Shown in pieces: positions 18,191-23,472 of a stretch of 64,000 nt of DNA. The translations under genes and the position numbers were made by a program. Below the pieces are notes generated by a model. That model was not told where the DNA came from and searched no databases. It saw nothing but the letters and a program-made list of their open reading frames with translations. Within the stretch, counting starts at the first letter, position 1; every line of letters starts with the position of its first letter. Source of the stretch: Fulvivirgaceae bacterium JP3-4 (lineage in GTDB: Bacteria; Bacteroidota; Bacteroidia; Cytophagales; Cyclobacteriaceae); the NCBI GenBank assembly GCA_029309925.1, contig JARKND010000001.1, positions 1,116,001 through 1,180,000 on the forward strand. The letters run 5' to 3'.

Positions 18191-18311
18191 GTTTTGTGTT
18201 CCAGGTTTCGTGTTTCGTGTTCCGGGTTTAGAGTTGCGGGTTGCGCTTCGATTAATGCGTATCGTCATCTGAAAACGGAAACACGGAACTCGAAACACTG
18301 AACACGGAATT
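18191..18311. repeat. Heptad-periodic inverted repeat (GTTTCGT words)
   Basis: The left arm (18191-18246) divides into 7-base words beginning with GTT: GTTTTGT, GTTCCAG, GTTTCGT twice, GTTCCGG, GTTTAGA, GTTGCGG. The right arm (18271-18311), read on the opposite strand, contains GTTCAGT, GTTTCGA, GTTCCGT and GTTTCCG. The arms pair imperfectly around about 25 bases. It sits directly upstream of the thioesterase start and about 100 bases before the threonine leader. Confidence 0.85.
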
Positions 18312-18414
18312 GTATTTCCAACGATTGCAACCGGCTACTAACCGTTAGTTCGCACAAAAATCATAAAAAATACTTTGCAAACAACTCTATCATTTCATTA
18401 TTTCGAACAGTAAC
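18312..18414 (+). promoter_or_regulatory. Presumed promoter region of the threonine operon
   Basis: About 100 bases between the heptad repeat and the leader peptide. A TTTG at 18374-18377 is followed 21 bases later by TATTTCGA, a poor match to the Bacteroidota -7 box, so the exact promoter is uncertain. The divergent thioesterase transcript probably also starts in the 18189-18400 interval. Confidence 0.3.
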
Positions 18415-18522
18415 ATGAACGCGAGCCAAAACATAGCACACCTTTCAGCTGCACCTTCGTTGGTGACTGTGGCTACTTCGTTCATTCCCGCTACAACTAC
18501 AACTACAATTATTACGGGGTAA
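18415..18522 (+). CDS. thrL: Threonine-operon leader peptide
   Basis: A 35-codon reading frame (ATG at 18415, TAA at 18520) ends in ATTTTTIITG. Seven of the last 15 codons encode threonine or isoleucine in a row (ACA ACT ACA ACT ACA ATT ATT, then ACG). It lies about 100 bases upstream of thrA. This matches the design of leader peptides whose ribosome stalling controls transcription attenuation of threonine operons. The symbol thrL is used by analogy only; the peptide has no sequence similarity to the enteric one beyond the Thr/Ile run. Confidence 0.75.
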   Translation: MNASQNIAHLSAAPSLVTVATSFIPATTTTTIITG

Positions 18523-18551
18523 CCCGTGTTCATTTTTTACCCCAACCCGTG
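18514..18551 (+). promoter_or_regulatory. Candidate attenuator structures of the threonine operon
   Basis: ACGGG (18514-18518) can pair with CCCGT (18523-18527) around GTAA, followed by a TTTTTT run (18532-18537). Alternatively GGGGTAA can pair with TTACCCC across the T run, and a second CCCGT copy (18547-18551, within the repeated AACCCGTGT) offers a further partner. The mutually exclusive pairings overlap the leader stop codon. Which form terminates is not decided from sequence alone. Confidence 0.55.
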
Positions 18552-18624
18552 TCTGCATATGTTCATTTCAAGGAGGTGAGCAGGATCAGATCAACTTTTT
18601 CAAACACGACTTACTCAATCAAAA

Positions 18625-21072
18625 ATGAAAATTCTAAAATTCGGTGGTTCGTCAGTGGCGACACCGCAGCGTATACAGTCTGTCATCGAAATCCTCAAGC
18701 CTTATCTGAAGGAGGAAGTTGCTATCGTTTTTTCAGCATTCGGTGGCGTAACAGATCAGCTTATCCAGATCTCGAAACTTGCTCTTGAAGGAAACCACGA
18801 GTACAAGAGCAAGCTCGAGCAACTTCAGAAGCGCCATCTCGATGTGGTGCGGGAGCTGGTCAGCGTGCAGCGGCAGAGCAGTATTCTCGCCCAGGTGAAG
18901 ATCAAGGTGAATGAACTGGAAGATGTTCTTCATGGCGTATACCTTGTGAAAGAAAGAACGCCACGGACACTTGACTACATCATGAGCTTCGGAGAGCGCT
19001 TGTCTGCCTATATCATTGCAGAAGTTATGCGCGACCAGGCGCTGGCTGTTGAATATCTCGATGCGCGCACGGTGATCCGCACTGACAGTAATTATGGTCA
19101 TGCGAAAGTAGACTATGCAATCACCAACAAGCAGATTGCAGATCATTTCAGACATCATCAGGATGTTCAGATCATTACAGGGTTTATCGCGACAGCGGAA
19201 AACGGAGAGACCACTACGCTTGGACGCAGCGGATCTGATTACACGGCCGCAATTTTTGCTGGCGCGCTTCATGCAAAAGACCTGGAGATATGGACGGATG
19301 TTGACGGAATGATGACGGCAGACCCACGACTGGTGAAGAAAGCATTCACGGTTCCGGAAATGAGCTATGAGGAGGCTATGGAACTTTCACATTTCGGTGC
19401 CAAAGTGATTTTTCCTGCGACCATGCAACCCGCGATGATCAATCGCATTCCCATCTGGATCAAAAATACTTTCAACCCAACCTTTAAAGGAACGAAGATT
19501 CATGCAGATGCCAGCAATGGTAAGCTGATCAAGGGCATCTCGTCTATGAGTGGCATCAGCCTGCTAAATGTGCAGGGAAGTGGCCTTCTTGGCGTAGTAG
19601 GATTTTCCATGCGTCTGTTTGCAACACTCGCGCGTGAAAAGGTGAATGTTATTCTCATCAGCCAGGCATCTTCTGAACACTCCATATGCATTGCTGTCGA
19701 CAGTCATTATGCACAGGCTGCAAAAGTTGCTATCGACCGTGAATTCCAGAACGAGATCAGAAATGAAGAAGTCGATGAGGTAATGGTCGAGCAGGACCTT
19801 GCGATTGTAGCGGTAGTAGGTGATGGCATGAAGCAAAGTCCGGGAACGAGCGGGAGGATGTTTGCAGCGCTTGGAAAAAATGGCGTGAACGTTTCTGCGA
19901 TCGCACAGGGATCTTCCGAACGAAATATTTCTGCAGTTGTTCGGCAGCAGGATGTAGGGAAGGCGTTGCAGGCACTGCATGAAGCCTTTTTCCTGTCAGA
20001 CCGGAAATTGTTAAATCTCTTCCTTGTCGGTACGGGGCTGATCGGCAACGCGCTGATCAATATGGTAAACGAGCAGTTCTCGAAACTTGCTGAGGATAAT
20101 CTACTTGAAGTGAATGTGGTTGGCATTGCCAACAGCAAGAAGATGCTTTTTAATGAAGACGGGCTCAATCTGAAAACCTGCCTTGCAGAAATGAAAGAAA
20201 AAGGTGAAAGCATGAAGATGTCCTCGTATGTTGACAGGATGCTTGCGCTCAACCTTCCGAACAGCATTTTTGTGGATTGTACATCAAGTGAGGAAGTGAC
20301 CGACTGTTATGAAGCGATTCTGTCGGGTAATATTTCAGTAGTCACTCCAAACAAGAAAGCCAATTCAGGTTCGCAGCAGAAATACAATACGCTTCGCAAA
20401 ACAGCGATGAGACGTGGCGCGAAATTTCTTTATGAGACGAACGTGGGAGCAGGACTTCCTGTAATCAATACGCTGAACGATTTGCTGCTCAGCGGTGACA
20501 AAGTGTTCAGCATCGAAGGTGTGTTAAGTGGAACGTTGAATTTCATCTTCAGCAATTTCACCGAGGGGAAAAAATTCAGTGAGGTAGTGAAGGAGGCGAA
20601 AGCCAAAGGGTATACGGAGCCTGATCCGCGCGATGATCTCAGTGGGATGGATGTGGCGCGAAAGATCCTCATACTTTCACGCGAAACCGGATTGAATCTT
20701 GAACTGGGCGACATCAAAGTTGAGAACCTTGTGCCCGCAGATTGTCAGGGCGACATTTCTGTTGATCAGTTTTTCAAGAATCTCGAGAAACACGATGCAG
20801 CATTTGAAAAGCTCCGCGCGAAGGCTTGTGCAAACCAGGAGAAACTGAGATACAAAGCAGTTTTAAAAGATGGTGAAGTGAAAGTCGAGCTTGGTTCTGT
20901 AAAGGATCAGCATCCGTTTTATAGTTTATCGGGAAGCGATAACATCATCCTGCTGACAACCGAACGCTACCATGAACGGCCAATGGTGATCCGCGGGCCT
21001 GGTGCTGGTGCTGCCGTGACCGCTGCGGGAGTTTTTGCCGATGTAATTCGTATTGGACACTATGCAAAATAG
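18625..21072 (+). CDS. thrA: Bifunctional aspartate kinase/homoserine dehydrogenase I
   Basis: An 815-residue fusion enzyme of the aspartate pathway. The aspartokinase part begins with KILKFGGSSVATPQRI and has GRSGSDYTAAIFAGAL; two ACT-type regulatory modules lie at about residues 310-455. The homoserine dehydrogenase part begins near 463 with the nucleotide-binding FLVGTGLIGNALI, then VTPNKKANSG and DPRDDLSGMDVARK (catalytic Asp/Lys region). It phosphorylates aspartate and reduces aspartate semialdehyde to homoserine. It is first in a thrABC operon. A strong SD-like AAGGAGGTGA lies unusually far upstream (18570-18579). Confidence 0.96.
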   Translation: MKILKFGGSSVATPQRIQSVIEILKPYLKEEVAIVFSAFGGVTDQLIQISKLALEGNHEYKSKLEQLQKRHLDVVRELVSVQRQSSILAQVKIKVNELEDVLHGVYLVKERTPRTLDYIMSFGERLSAYIIAEVMRDQALAVEYLDARTVIRTDSNYGHAKVDYAITNKQIADHFRHHQDVQIITGFIATAENGETTTLGRSGSDYTAAIFAGALHAKDLEIWTDVDGMMTADPRLVKKAFTVPEMSYEEAMELSHFGAKVIFPATMQPAMINRIPIWIKNTFNPTFKGTKIHADASNGKLIKGISSMSGISLLNVQGSGLLGVVGFSMRLFATLAREKVNVILISQASSEHSICIAVDSHYAQAAKVAIDREFQNEIRNEEVDEVMVEQDLAIVAVVGDGMKQSPGTSGRMFAALGKNGVNVSAIAQGSSERNISAVVRQQDVGKALQALHEAFFLSDRKLLNLFLVGTGLIGNALINMVNEQFSKLAEDNLLEVNVVGIANSKKMLFNEDGLNLKTCLAEMKEKGESMKMSSYVDRMLALNLPNSIFVDCTSSEEVTDCYEAILSGNISVVTPNKKANSGSQQKYNTLRKTAMRRGAKFLYETNVGAGLPVINTLNDLLLSGDKVFSIEGVLSGTLNFIFSNFTEGKKFSEVVKEAKAKGYTEPDPRDDLSGMDVARKILILSRETGLNLELGDIKVENLVPADCQGDISVDQFFKNLEKHDAAFEKLRAKACANQEKLRYKAVLKDGEVKVELGSVKDQHPFYSLSGSDNIILLTTERYHERPMVIRGPGAGAAVTAAGVFADVIRIGHYAK

Positions 21073-21190: not shown

Positions 21191-22120
21191 GTGAAGACCA
21201 TAAAAGCTTTTGCGCCTGCTACTGTTGCCAATGTTTCCTGCGGCTTTGATGTTTTTGGATTTGCTGTTGAACAGCCTGGTGATGAAGTGACGCTTACGCT
21301 TACAAAAACTCCGGGCGTGAGGATGACCAAAATTGAAGGTGACGGAGGCAGACTTCCGCTTGAAGCCGAAAAGAACACGGCAGGTGTGGCGGTTATCTCT
21401 TTTCTGAAGTCGATTGATAGTGATGCGGGAGTGGAGATCTTTCTGAAAAAAAATTTACCGCTTGGGAGCGGGATGGGTTCGAGCGCTGCGAGTGCTGCTG
21501 CGGCCCTTGCCGGGATCAACCATCTTCTTGGTGAGCCTTTATCGAGGAGGGAGCTTTTGCCTTTTGCGATGGAGTCAGAACGGATTGCCTGCGGCTCTGC
21601 GCATGCCGACAACGTTGCACCATCACTGCTTGGCGGCTTCGTGCTGATCAGAGGCTATGAGCCGCTTGACGTGGTTTCAATTCCCACCCCTGACAATTTG
21701 TTTTGTACCCTTGTACATCCCCATCTCGAACTGAAGACGCAGGACTCGCGCCAGGTGCTGCGTTCAACCATACCGTTGAAAGATGCAATCACACAATGGG
21801 GAAATATTGCCGGACTCATTGCCGGGCTCATGAAACCTGACTTTGGCCTGATCGGCAGGTCGCTCAAGGATGTTGTGGCAGAGCCCATCCGGTCACTACT
21901 CATTCCCGGCTTCGATGTTATTAAAGAAAAGGCTGTGGAATCAGGAGCGCTGGGTTGTGGAATTTCCGGATCCGGTCCAACAATTTTCGCGCTAAGCACC
22001 GAAAAGGAAACTGCGCTGAGAACTGGCAAAGCAATTCAGCAGGAATTCAAAAAACTAAAGCTTGAAAGCGAAGTCTACATCTCGCGAATCAATTCAACAG
22101 GCGCAAAAGTTATCTCATGA
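21191..22120 (+). CDS. thrB: Homoserine kinase
   Basis: A 309-residue GHMP-family kinase that phosphorylates homoserine, the third dedicated step to threonine. The start is GTG at 21191 (then AAG ACC ATA). The N-terminus reads KTIKAFAPATVANVSCGFDV, the ATP loop is LPLGSGMGSSAASAAAALAG near residue 90, and the GCGISGSGPTIFALS motif is near 255. It lies 118 bases after thrA, with a hairpin in the gap, and 41 bases before thrC. Confidence 0.96.
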   Translation: MKTIKAFAPATVANVSCGFDVFGFAVEQPGDEVTLTLTKTPGVRMTKIEGDGGRLPLEAEKNTAGVAVISFLKSIDSDAGVEIFLKKNLPLGSGMGSSAASAAAALAGINHLLGEPLSRRELLPFAMESERIACGSAHADNVAPSLLGGFVLIRGYEPLDVVSIPTPDNLFCTLVHPHLELKTQDSRQVLRSTIPLKDAITQWGNIAGLIAGLMKPDFGLIGRSLKDVVAEPIRSLLIPGFDVIKEKAVESGALGCGISGSGPTIFALSTEKETALRTGKAIQQEFKKLKLESEVYISRINSTGAKVIS

Positions 22121-22161: not shown

Positions 22162-23472
22162 ATGATCCTTTACAGCACCAGAAATAAATCACACCGGGTT
22201 ACATTGAAAGATGCCGTGATCCGCGGGCTTGCTCCTGACAATGGACTTTACATGCCAACGGAAATCAAACCACTTCCTGAAAAGTTTTTTAAATCCCTTC
22301 CCGAAAAATCGTTTAGCGAAATCTCGTTTCAAGTTGCCAGTCATTTGATCGGGGATTCATTACCGGTAACGGAATTAAAAAGGATTATCGATCATACGAT
22401 TCAGTTCGATGCGCCACTGGTTGAAGTTGAAAGCAGTGTATATGCACTTGAATTGTTTCACGGGCCGACACTGGCATTTAAAGATTTTGGCGCGCGCTTT
22501 ATGTCGCAGCTGCTGGGCTACTTTGCGCGTGAGGAGAAAAAAGAAATCGTGATATTGGCAGCAACGTCAGGAGACACAGGCAGTGCTGTTGCGAACGGAT
22601 TCCTTGGTGTGAAGGGAACGCGTGTAGTAGTTTTATATCCCAAAGGGAAAGTGAGTGTTATCCAGGAAAAGCAATTCACAACGCTGGGACAAAACATCAC
22701 CGCAATTGAAGTCGATGGTACGTTTGACGACTGCCAGACACTTGTCAAAAAGGCTTTTCAGGATGAAGAACTCCGTGCCGAATTTTTTCTTACTTCGGCC
22801 AACTCGATTAACATAGCACGGCTTATTCCTCAATCCTTTTATTACTTCTATGCATTCAGCAGGCTGATGCACCTCAAAAAGCCTGTCGTGTTCTCCGTAC
22901 CCAGCGGCAATTTTGGAAACTTGACAGGTGGGCTGCTGGCGAAACGCATGGGCCTCGACATCGCCCACTTTGTTGTGTCTACCAATAAAAATGATGTGGT
23001 TCCCGAATACCTTCAAACAAAAAAATTCAATCCTCGCCCATCAGTTCAGACTATAAGCAACGCAATGGATGTTGGCAATCCGAGCAACTTCGAGCGCATT
23101 CTAGAAATCTTCGACAATGATTTTGAGGCGTTAAGCAATGCGGTTTCTGGCTTCTGCATTTCTGACGATGAGACACGCAACGTAATGAAACAGGTTGAAC
23201 GGGAAACGAACTATATACTCGATCCCCATGGAGCAGTTGCTTACGCAGGTCTTAAAAAATATTTGAAAGGTAAAGATCAGGTCGGTGTTTTCCTCGAGAC
23301 CGCCCATCCGGCAAAATTCCTTGAGGTAGTGGAGGAAACGCTCGGAAGAAAACTGACTCTGCCCGACAAACTCGCTGACTTCCTGCGGAGAGAAAAAAAA
23401 TCGCTGCGATCAAGTGCGGACTTTGCCGCTATTAAAAAACTTTTAGTCAACACGCTCAGCGTTGCCGATTAG
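22162..23472 (+). CDS. thrC: Threonine synthase
   Basis: A 436-residue PLP enzyme converting O-phosphohomoserine to threonine. The N-terminus has YSTRNKSHRVTLKDAVIRGL and APDNGLYMP, the PLP lysine lies in HGPTLAFKDFGARFM near residue 108, and the phosphate loop is ATSGDTGSAVANGF. It ends the thrABC operon. Its last 30 bases overlap the convergent minus-strand membrane protein gene. Confidence 0.96.
   Translation: MILYSTRNKSHRVTLKDAVIRGLAPDNGLYMPTEIKPLPEKFFKSLPEKSFSEISFQVASHLIGDSLPVTELKRIIDHTIQFDAPLVEVESSVYALELFHGPTLAFKDFGARFMSQLLGYFAREEKKEIVILAATSGDTGSAVANGFLGVKGTRVVVLYPKGKVSVIQEKQFTTLGQNITAIEVDGTFDDCQTLVKKAFQDEELRAEFFLTSANSINIARLIPQSFYYFYAFSRLMHLKKPVVFSVPSGNFGNLTGGLLAKRMGLDIAHFVVSTNKNDVVPEYLQTKKFNPRPSVQTISNAMDVGNPSNFERILEIFDNDFEALSNAVSGFCISDDETRNVMKQVERETNYILDPHGAVAYAGLKKYLKGKDQVGVFLETAHPAKFLEVVEETLGRKLTLPDKLADFLRREKKSLRSSADFAAIKKLLVNTLSVAD

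Follow-up and report, generated by a model that had tools for sequence, protein, structure and literature searches.

We analysed a 64-kb window of the 5.8-Mb genome of Fulvivirgaceae bacterium JP3-4 (G000; family Cyclobacteriaceae), and here describe a short open reading frame (ORF) and the RNA elements that follow it in front of the threonine operon thrABC. The element is almost certainly a threonine-sensing leader. Comparison with relatives indicates a real, conserved leader peptide that does not appear to belong to a classical attenuator, and suggests a variant of ribosome-controlled attenuation with a putative off-switch. That this leader senses an amino acid without relying on a conserved intrinsic terminator is, in our view, very probable. 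The whole explanation that we favor, a threonine-responsive leader-peptide attenuator without intrinsic terminator that would act through a pause hairpin and occlusion of Rho, we put at roughly 45%.

The thrA leader and its stop-codon hairpin

The leader ORF (MNASQNIAHLSAAPSLVTVATSFIPATTTTTIITG, 18415..18522, on the plus strand like all features below) had been proposed in a first-pass annotation of this DNA, and its 35 codons were confirmed from the ORF list and the sequence. The regulatory codon run near its 3´ end (18493..18516) is C-rich and consists of five threonine codons (18493-18507), two isoleucine codons and another threonine codon, as had been stated; a final glycine codon, which had been left out, precedes the stop. 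Five consecutive ACN codons occur nowhere else in the window, in any frame or on either strand. The stop codon TAA (18520-18522) sits inside the loop of a hairpin, H1 (ACGGG-GTAA-CCCGT, 18514..18527, from sequence and folding), and this geometry, which the first-pass annotation had called unusual, proved to be the most conserved feature. About 9 nt past H1 is a degenerate copy, TTTACCCC (18536..18543), of a conserved motif that reads CATATNGCCC or CATACCCC; this copy was placed by eye against the relatives and is weak in the window species. A second predicted hairpin, H2 (TGTTCATTTC-AAG-GAGGTGAGCA, 18560..18582), has no U-run behind it. The RNA from 18505 to 18610 is predicted to be more stable than dinucleotide-shuffled versions of itself (z -2.06; 5 of 200 shuffles were equally good).

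The comparison used thrA upstream regions of 134 loci, made up of the best-ranking matches and 80 selected ones; these include only part of the close ThrA matches. Orientation succeeded for 133; L134, whose thrA start was not recognised, was dropped. An ORF rich in threonine and isoleucine codons whose 3´ end reads ACGGGN-stop, or nearly so, was found together with a stop-codon hairpin in 92 of the 133 regions, window included (the leader in L081 was placed by hand). All 92 fall within the 99 examined loci with the closest ThrA proteins (L001-L013 and L031-L116), and conservation of the leader codons and hairpin in close relatives, on which the first-pass annotation had staked its proposal, is therefore extensive. 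The seven of the 99 without the leader form are L055, L056, L060, L066, L067, L083 and L115; in the first two, hairpin-like sequence is still visible by eye, with the frame or stop shifted. Given this conservation, and the recurrence in other families and in his operons described below, it is hardly credible that a threonine-rich ORF and a hairpin without any regulatory role came together here by chance.

The last 12 codons of the relatives' leaders contain on average 5.2 threonine codons, and 7.6 threonine or isoleucine codons (minimum 4). A hairpin spanning the stop is predicted at -3.5 kcal/mol or below in 89 of the 92 leaders, with a median of -7.6. The elements follow a conserved order: codon run, H1 enclosing the leader stop, a G-poor spacer of about 10 nt, CATATNGCCC or a variant, H2 and thrA. 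The distance from H1 to the motif is 8-13 nt in 70 of the 92 leaders and peaks at 10; no value was obtained for 17, and five outliers lie at 4, 6, 22, 29 and 31 nt. For H2, a 55-nt window has a mean z of -1.39 relative to shuffles (below -1 in 58/92, above 0 in 3/92), and the native sequence folds better than the average chimera with a 3´ half from another species in 73 of 84 leaders, with a split point that was taken from the native fold and so favors it. H2 is very weak in some relatives (L046, L057-L063 and L065). Covariation in this predicted stem is moderate.

Loci with ThrA proteins of at most 55 per cent identity (L014-L030 and L117-L133) lack the window-type leader form. Three of them (L019, L024 and L125) possess a classical thr attenuator that includes a U-run; four others (L023, L025, L029 and L133) share the stop-in-hairpin geometry but differ in stem sequence. 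No such leader was seen in 30 remoter loci, mostly from Dyadobacter, Runella, Telluribacter and Spirosoma (L182, L185-L204 and L206-L214). The exact thr H1 pattern is narrow and does not even recognise H1 of the window; among 395 genomes it hit two, G153, which is from the same family, and G612. The match in G612 (L423), which belongs to another family of the phylum, is exact to the thr hairpin sequence. A pattern of stop, spacer and ATATNGCCC gave 36 matches in the window's own genome and 29 in a reversed control, and a similar search of eight relatives gave 71 against 17, including the known thr and his sites.

One genus, g18, shows the element in an altered state. Eight members (L006, L040, L042, L045, L049, L052, L053 and L054) have the thr hairpin weakened to GGGGTAGCNCCC and a drifting motif, which may perhaps represent a stage of loss, and the hairpin is intact in L046, L048 and L051 of the same genus.

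The layout before hisG and elsewhere in the class

HisG genes were located in 23 of 29 relatives and in 122 of 128 family members, and 90 hisG upstream regions were compared. A strict his-module pattern (a leader rich in histidine codons with TTCCTC(N)-stop at its end, and the motif no more than 45 nt away) was matched by 23 of the 90. Most of these leaders end in ..HHSS-stop and have the hairpin ATTCCTC(C)-stop-(G)GAGGAA, followed by a spacer of roughly 10 nt, CATATCGCCC and H2. Their hairpin, ATTCCTCC-TAA-GGAGGAAT, is unrelated to the thr stem, and the spacing from stop to motif is alike in thr and his leaders. When no pattern was imposed, 84 leaders had at least three histidine codons in twelve, and 46 of these had a stop-spanning hairpin at -3.5 kcal/mol or below; the motif lay 5-14 nt behind the hairpin in 26 of these 46 versus 4 of the other 38 (Fisher p 1e-5, with related rows counted separately). 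Of the six pairs of H2, four are changed on both sides in the his alignment; 87.7 per cent of cells are paired, versus 84.6 in shuffles and 44-55 in slid controls. When 345 genomes of the phylum were searched with a covariance model of the his element, it picked out 3, each from this same family; only 12 candidates were scored per genome shown, so silence elsewhere means little.

The layout also recurs beyond the close relatives. A class-level sample of 53 ThrA matches among 247 genomes provided 38 upstream regions, to which G021 was added; together with the thr loci lacking the window-type form, this gave 32 Thr/Ile-rich thrA leaders. Nine of the 32 have a stop-spanning hairpin at -6 kcal/mol or below, with stems such as ACCCC/GGGGT, AACCCC/GGGGTT, CAACCC/GGGTTG and CATGCCC/GGGGCATG. 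CATA[TC] or TATAT lies 8-11 nt past the hairpin in 8 of these 9 and in 1 of the 23 others (p 7e-6, again counting related rows separately). The -6 kcal/mol cut was set after the energies had been seen; with the -3.5 cut used for his, the result is 8/10 versus 1/22 (p 4e-5). L025 and L029, and likewise L447 and L451, are near copies, and L133 is from the window's own family. L448, L452 and L453 are similar by eye, but have the stop just behind the hairpin. These unrelated stems make the strongest case that selection acts on H1 as a structure.

Other attenuators in the same family look different. The window genome's own hisG (L223), about 7 kb past the right end of the window, is preceded by a leader of the classical kind, with HHHHH and the terminator GACAGGC-TTTTTT, and the classical his form with GACAGGCTTTTTT is found there as well as in G017 (Chryseolinea) and Chryseosolibacter indicus. 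Judged by sequence, a thr module and a classical his attenuator, and with them both attenuator types, coexist in one cell. The trp leaders examined (19 of 20 loci, L417 being left out) come mostly from genomes with the thr module and are mostly classical. Upstream of trpE, L399, L402, L404, L405, L408, L412 and L414 have WWW leaders, mostly with classical terminators, and carry CTATTGCC or a similar sequence.

Termination, pausing and a proposed role for Rho

The first-pass annotation read the region as ribosome-mediated attenuation of the Gammaproteobacterial kind. In such a classical attenuator, H1 with the T-run, or H2, would be the terminator, and GGGG/CCCC pairing or two CCCGT copies would form the antiterminator. 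The window does offer the parts: a run of six T (18533-18538), two copies of AACCCGTGT (18521-18529 and 18544-18552), and a GGGGTAA that can pair with TTACCCC. A terminator scan of the leader called one terminator-like site, H1+TTCATTTTTT, which also passes a strict test (at least 6 pairs, at least 4 GC pairs and at least 6 T in 8). Under a looser test, 37 of the 92 thr-module leaders and 12 of the 23 his-module leaders show terminator-like sites, versus 4 of 92 when the thr leaders were mononucleotide-shuffled once, and U-run thr attenuators exist outside the module, in L019, L024, L125 and class members such as L433 and L441.

However, shuffles of the window leader are expected to give 0.6 such sites, so that the one found is at chance level, and the T-run and the doubled AACCCGTGT that had been pointed out are real in the window genome but poorly conserved: a T-run of at least 5 shortly after the stop occurs in 5 of 92 leaders, a run of 6 in the window only, and two CCCGT copies in 6 of 92. 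The T-run at 18533-18538 is apparently part of the drift of the degenerate motif copy. Strict terminators were found in 9 of 92 thr-module leaders (the window's H1 included), 4 of 23 his-module leaders and none of the 9 class-level stop-hairpin leaders, as against 14 of 20 HHHH-type his leaders (chosen by HHHH and no match to the module pattern, regardless of U-runs), 14 of 19 trp leaders and 9 of 23 other class-level thr leaders. Eight ilv leaders, picked by eye from 22 ilvD upstream regions for a visible leader and U-run, served only as a positive control for the detector, which found strict terminators in six; only one of the eight (L248, genome G003) belongs to a genome that also has the thr module. 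T content averages 2.75 in the 8 nt behind H2, which is background, and 3.2 in those behind H1, in both thr (89) and his (26) leaders. In addition, H1 as a terminator would have the wrong sign for a biosynthetic operon, because a ribosome would melt a terminator overlapping the stop when threonine is plentiful.

H1 with the T-run as a conserved terminator was thus rejected on the T-run counts, the chance-level site in the window and the strict-terminator count; H2 as a terminator, on the background level of T behind it; and the doubled AACCCGTGT as a conserved antiterminator, on the rarity of two CCCGT copies. GGG/CCC pairing of the H1 5´ arm with the motif is possible by eye in thr leaders, where flanking changes do not consistently keep the pairing, but not in his-module leaders, whose H1 5´ arm has the same geometry, is C-rich and cannot pair with the motif's GCCC. 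A four-segment 1:2/2:3/3:4 chain (GGGG, GCCCC, AAGG, GGACC) is suggestive by eye in some thr leaders and inconsistent overall, and was dropped because his leaders show the motif with an unrelated H1. We consider a classical attenuator distinctly unlikely; of the first-pass reading, the Thr/Ile leader before thrABC stands and the Gammaproteobacteria-style intrinsic terminator does not.

What H1 and the motif might do instead is suggested by their spacing together with facts from E. coli, where the pause consensus is given as G-10 Y-1 G+1 and hairpins of the hisL kind were studied with a spacer of 10 nt (PMC9291695). The hairpin-to-CATAT distance here peaks at 10 nt. In the his alignment the motif contains an invariant G that follows C or T, which resembles Y-1 G+1, while in thr leaders both the base after CATAT and the G are variable. 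By eye, in several trp leaders with terminators a short hairpin is followed at a distance of about 10 nt by CTATTGCC, a sequence that may act more generally in the family as a signal for RNA polymerase to pause.

The same observations would fit pause-coupling without Rho, in which H1 holds the polymerase at CATATNG until the ribosome reaches the stop some 20 nt behind, and a terminating versus a stalled ribosome decides the fate of the polymerase directly or through a NusG/NusA-like factor. The like spacing of stop, hairpin and motif in unrelated thr and his leaders, recurring in the class, the Y-G match of the his motif and the CTATTGCC sequences of the trp leaders all speak for it. Pausing alone provides no obvious off-switch, however, its simplest version has the wrong sign, and the variable bases in thr leaders do not fit a pause signal well. 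We regard it as unlikely.

Our preferred explanation adds Rho to the pause. The leader would be translated by ribosomes running right behind RNA polymerase. H1, with CATATNGCCC about 10 nt on, would constitute a hairpin-type pause site that keeps the polymerase within reach, and the codon run and the sequence behind it, C-rich and G-poor, would form the Rho-loading (rut) stretch. When threonyl-tRNA, and perhaps also isoleucyl-tRNA, is short, the ribosome would stall on the codon run and cover the Rho site, such that Rho would not load and thrABC would be transcribed. When the tRNA is plentiful, the ribosome would enter H1, meet the stop in the loop and leave; after this normal termination the run would be bare, and Rho could load and stop the paused polymerase. 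The response would have the right sign because a ribosome stalled on the run would hide the Rho site.

We arrived at Rho because the codons of the amino acids that use the element are C-rich and G-poor, the C-over-G window begins on the run, and module-type his leaders are richer in YC. Across the 92 leaders, the best 70-nt C-over-G window starts at the codon run, a median of 34 nt before the leader stop; its mean excess is 14.2 versus 4.0 in an upstream control, and is higher than the control in 85 of 92. The C/G ratio is 2.0 in the 90 nt after the stop and 1.0 upstream. ACC makes up 52 per cent of the threonine codons of the run versus 38 per cent in thrA, a small shift (37 of 92 loci, 143 leader codons). 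The genome of the window has a rho gene (TIGR00767, 673 bits). The Rho occlusion step taken by itself is tentative, and we would give it somewhat less than even odds.

Several points weigh against this explanation. An excess of C over G predicts Rho sites poorly, and threonine (ACN) and histidine (CAY) codons are C-rich anyway. YC dinucleotides number 15.6 per 100 nt in module-type his leaders and 9.7 in U-run his leaders, a set chosen by its U-run (p 9e-7), a comparison that is partly circular since the pattern that defines the module includes TTCCTC and the motif. The C-over-G excess of the same leaders differs slightly (13.7 versus 10.9, p 0.046), and their G content does not differ significantly (p 0.14). 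With respect to H1, the stem is nearly invariant across the 92 leaders, and there is almost no covariation within this set. Pairing in H1 is reduced, by eye, in nine leaders, the eight g18 members listed above and L050. Twenty of the 46 strong-hairpin his leaders are not credited with the motif, which is present in three of them (L325, L331 and L341). The pair-change counts for H2 in the his alignment are not above those of the slid controls. Finally, given the looser terminator-like sites, module leaders may show weak intrinsic termination, most of all in the window species, where the degenerate motif and the T6 behind H1 could allow weak termination by H1 alone.

A further alternative places control at translation or mRNA decay: a stalled ribosome would alter access to the thrA start, or would protect or expose a cleavage site at CATATNGCCC between H1 and H2. 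A conserved, presumably single-stranded motif between two hairpins is what a processing site would resemble, and the thrA start pairs partly with the H2 region, which accounts for about a quarter of its predicted pairing. On the other hand, predicted pairing of the thrA start does not on average exceed that of the remaining leader (in 64 of 92 the start is the more open part), little of it involves H1, and on these folding results sequestration of the start was rejected. The gap from the leader stop to thrA (102 nt in the window; 70-239 nt, median 93.5, across the 92 leaders) is too long for simple re-initiation. We find control at this level very unlikely.

Were pausing and Rho occlusion to hold, the element could represent a separate class of attenuator in Bacteroidota, with the leader stop built into a polymerase pause hairpin and the codon run serving as the Rho-loading site. 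Such a class would be confined to amino acids with C-rich, G-poor codons (Thr ACN, His CAY), others such as Trp keeping intrinsic terminators in the same cells, and stalling would switch the operon on by covering the rut site and not by refolding the RNA. We offer this generalization as speculative, and think that it could well prove wrong. It would bring a simple rule on which amino acids can use the element. The shared layout itself points to an undescribed way of sensing amino-acid shortage: a compact, conserved element, common to threonine and histidine operons, that lacks a part thought essential.

Relation to known systems and neighboring features

The thr, his and trp attenuators of E. 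coli presumably share with this element the coupling of transcription and translation and a possible hairpin pause of the polymerase, but here there is no conserved U-run terminator and no consistent antiterminator/terminator pair, and the stop lies in the loop of the first hairpin. In the proposed model, the element is also like the Rho-dependent leaders tnaC and mgtL of Enterobacteriaceae, since a ribosome on a short ORF would decide the loading of Rho. In tnaC the signal is free tryptophan, which arrests the nascent chain at the stop codon, whereas here the signal would be a codon run and starvation. Leaderless polycysteine ORFs of mycobacteria have reportedly been treated by Canestrari et al. 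in 2020.

The closest idea that we met concerns cysteine leaders of Actinobacteria that lack terminators, for which Rho-dependent attenuation was proposed from polypyrimidine motifs (Seliverstov et al. 2005, PMC1262725). In the accessible parts of that paper no stop-codon hairpin is described and the Rho motifs are called not conserved, whereas here hairpin, spacing and motif are conserved. Within the phylum, the portion of PMC9723704 consulted gives clues for leader-peptide attenuation upstream of amino-acid operons in Flavobacterium psychrophilum, together with a hisG 5´ element that is conserved in Flavobacteriaceae and has no Rfam match; the phylum and the type of operon are the same as here, but no architecture is described in that portion, and the words 'threonine' and 'thrA' are absent from the main text. 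In B. thetaiotaomicron, some 5´ UTRs were noted to be long and to contain short ORFs 'reminiscent of leader peptides' (PMC7366714). The available portions of the literature on leader peptides of Bacteroidota and Flavobacteria, on Rho-dependent leader-peptide attenuation and on polycysteine leaders held no description of a stop in a hairpin combined with a conserved motif. Judging from these sources, RNA-level control of amino-acid synthesis seems little described in Bacteroidota, which live in guts, soils and seas, and if the Rho reading is true, a codon run that is both sensor and termination site would be a dual design not met in them.

Rfam covariance models, among them the Thr_leader and His_leader families, were applied to the whole window and gave 0 matches at the gathering score. 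The operon downstream of the leader is complete, as had been claimed: Pfam domains identify thrA (18625..21072; AA_kinase, ACT, NAD_binding_3 and Homoserine_dh) as a bifunctional aspartokinase-homoserine dehydrogenase, thrB (21191..22120; GHMP family, in the position of a homoserine kinase) as homoserine kinase and thrC (22162..23472; Thr_synth_N, PALP and THR4_C) as threonine synthase.

Upstream of the leader, a Bacteroidota-type promoter is predicted from the sequence at 18374..18405, with TTTG at 18374-18377 and TATTTCG at 18399-18405, and this stretch is also kept upstream of thrA in L002, L003, L004 and L005. The promoter consensus in Bacteroidota is TTTG / TAnnTTTG, to which the -7 element TATTTCG is an imperfect match. 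Transcription from the predicted promoter would start within a few bases of the leader ATG. A scan for E. coli-type promoters found none. Further upstream, the intergenic region 18198-18312 contains many CGTGTTTCGTGTTCC-like words and their complement; a repeat finder returned 0 repeats of at least 14 nt there.

In the closest relatives (many of L002-L005, L031-L039 and L057-L065) the loop region of H2 reads CCAGGAG, CCAGGAAG or AAGGAG, which is Shine-Dalgarno-like and lies tens of nt before thrA; the window equivalent at 18570-18579 is AAGGAGGTGA. Bacteroidota hardly use Shine-Dalgarno sites, and such a stretch in the H2 loop is odd.
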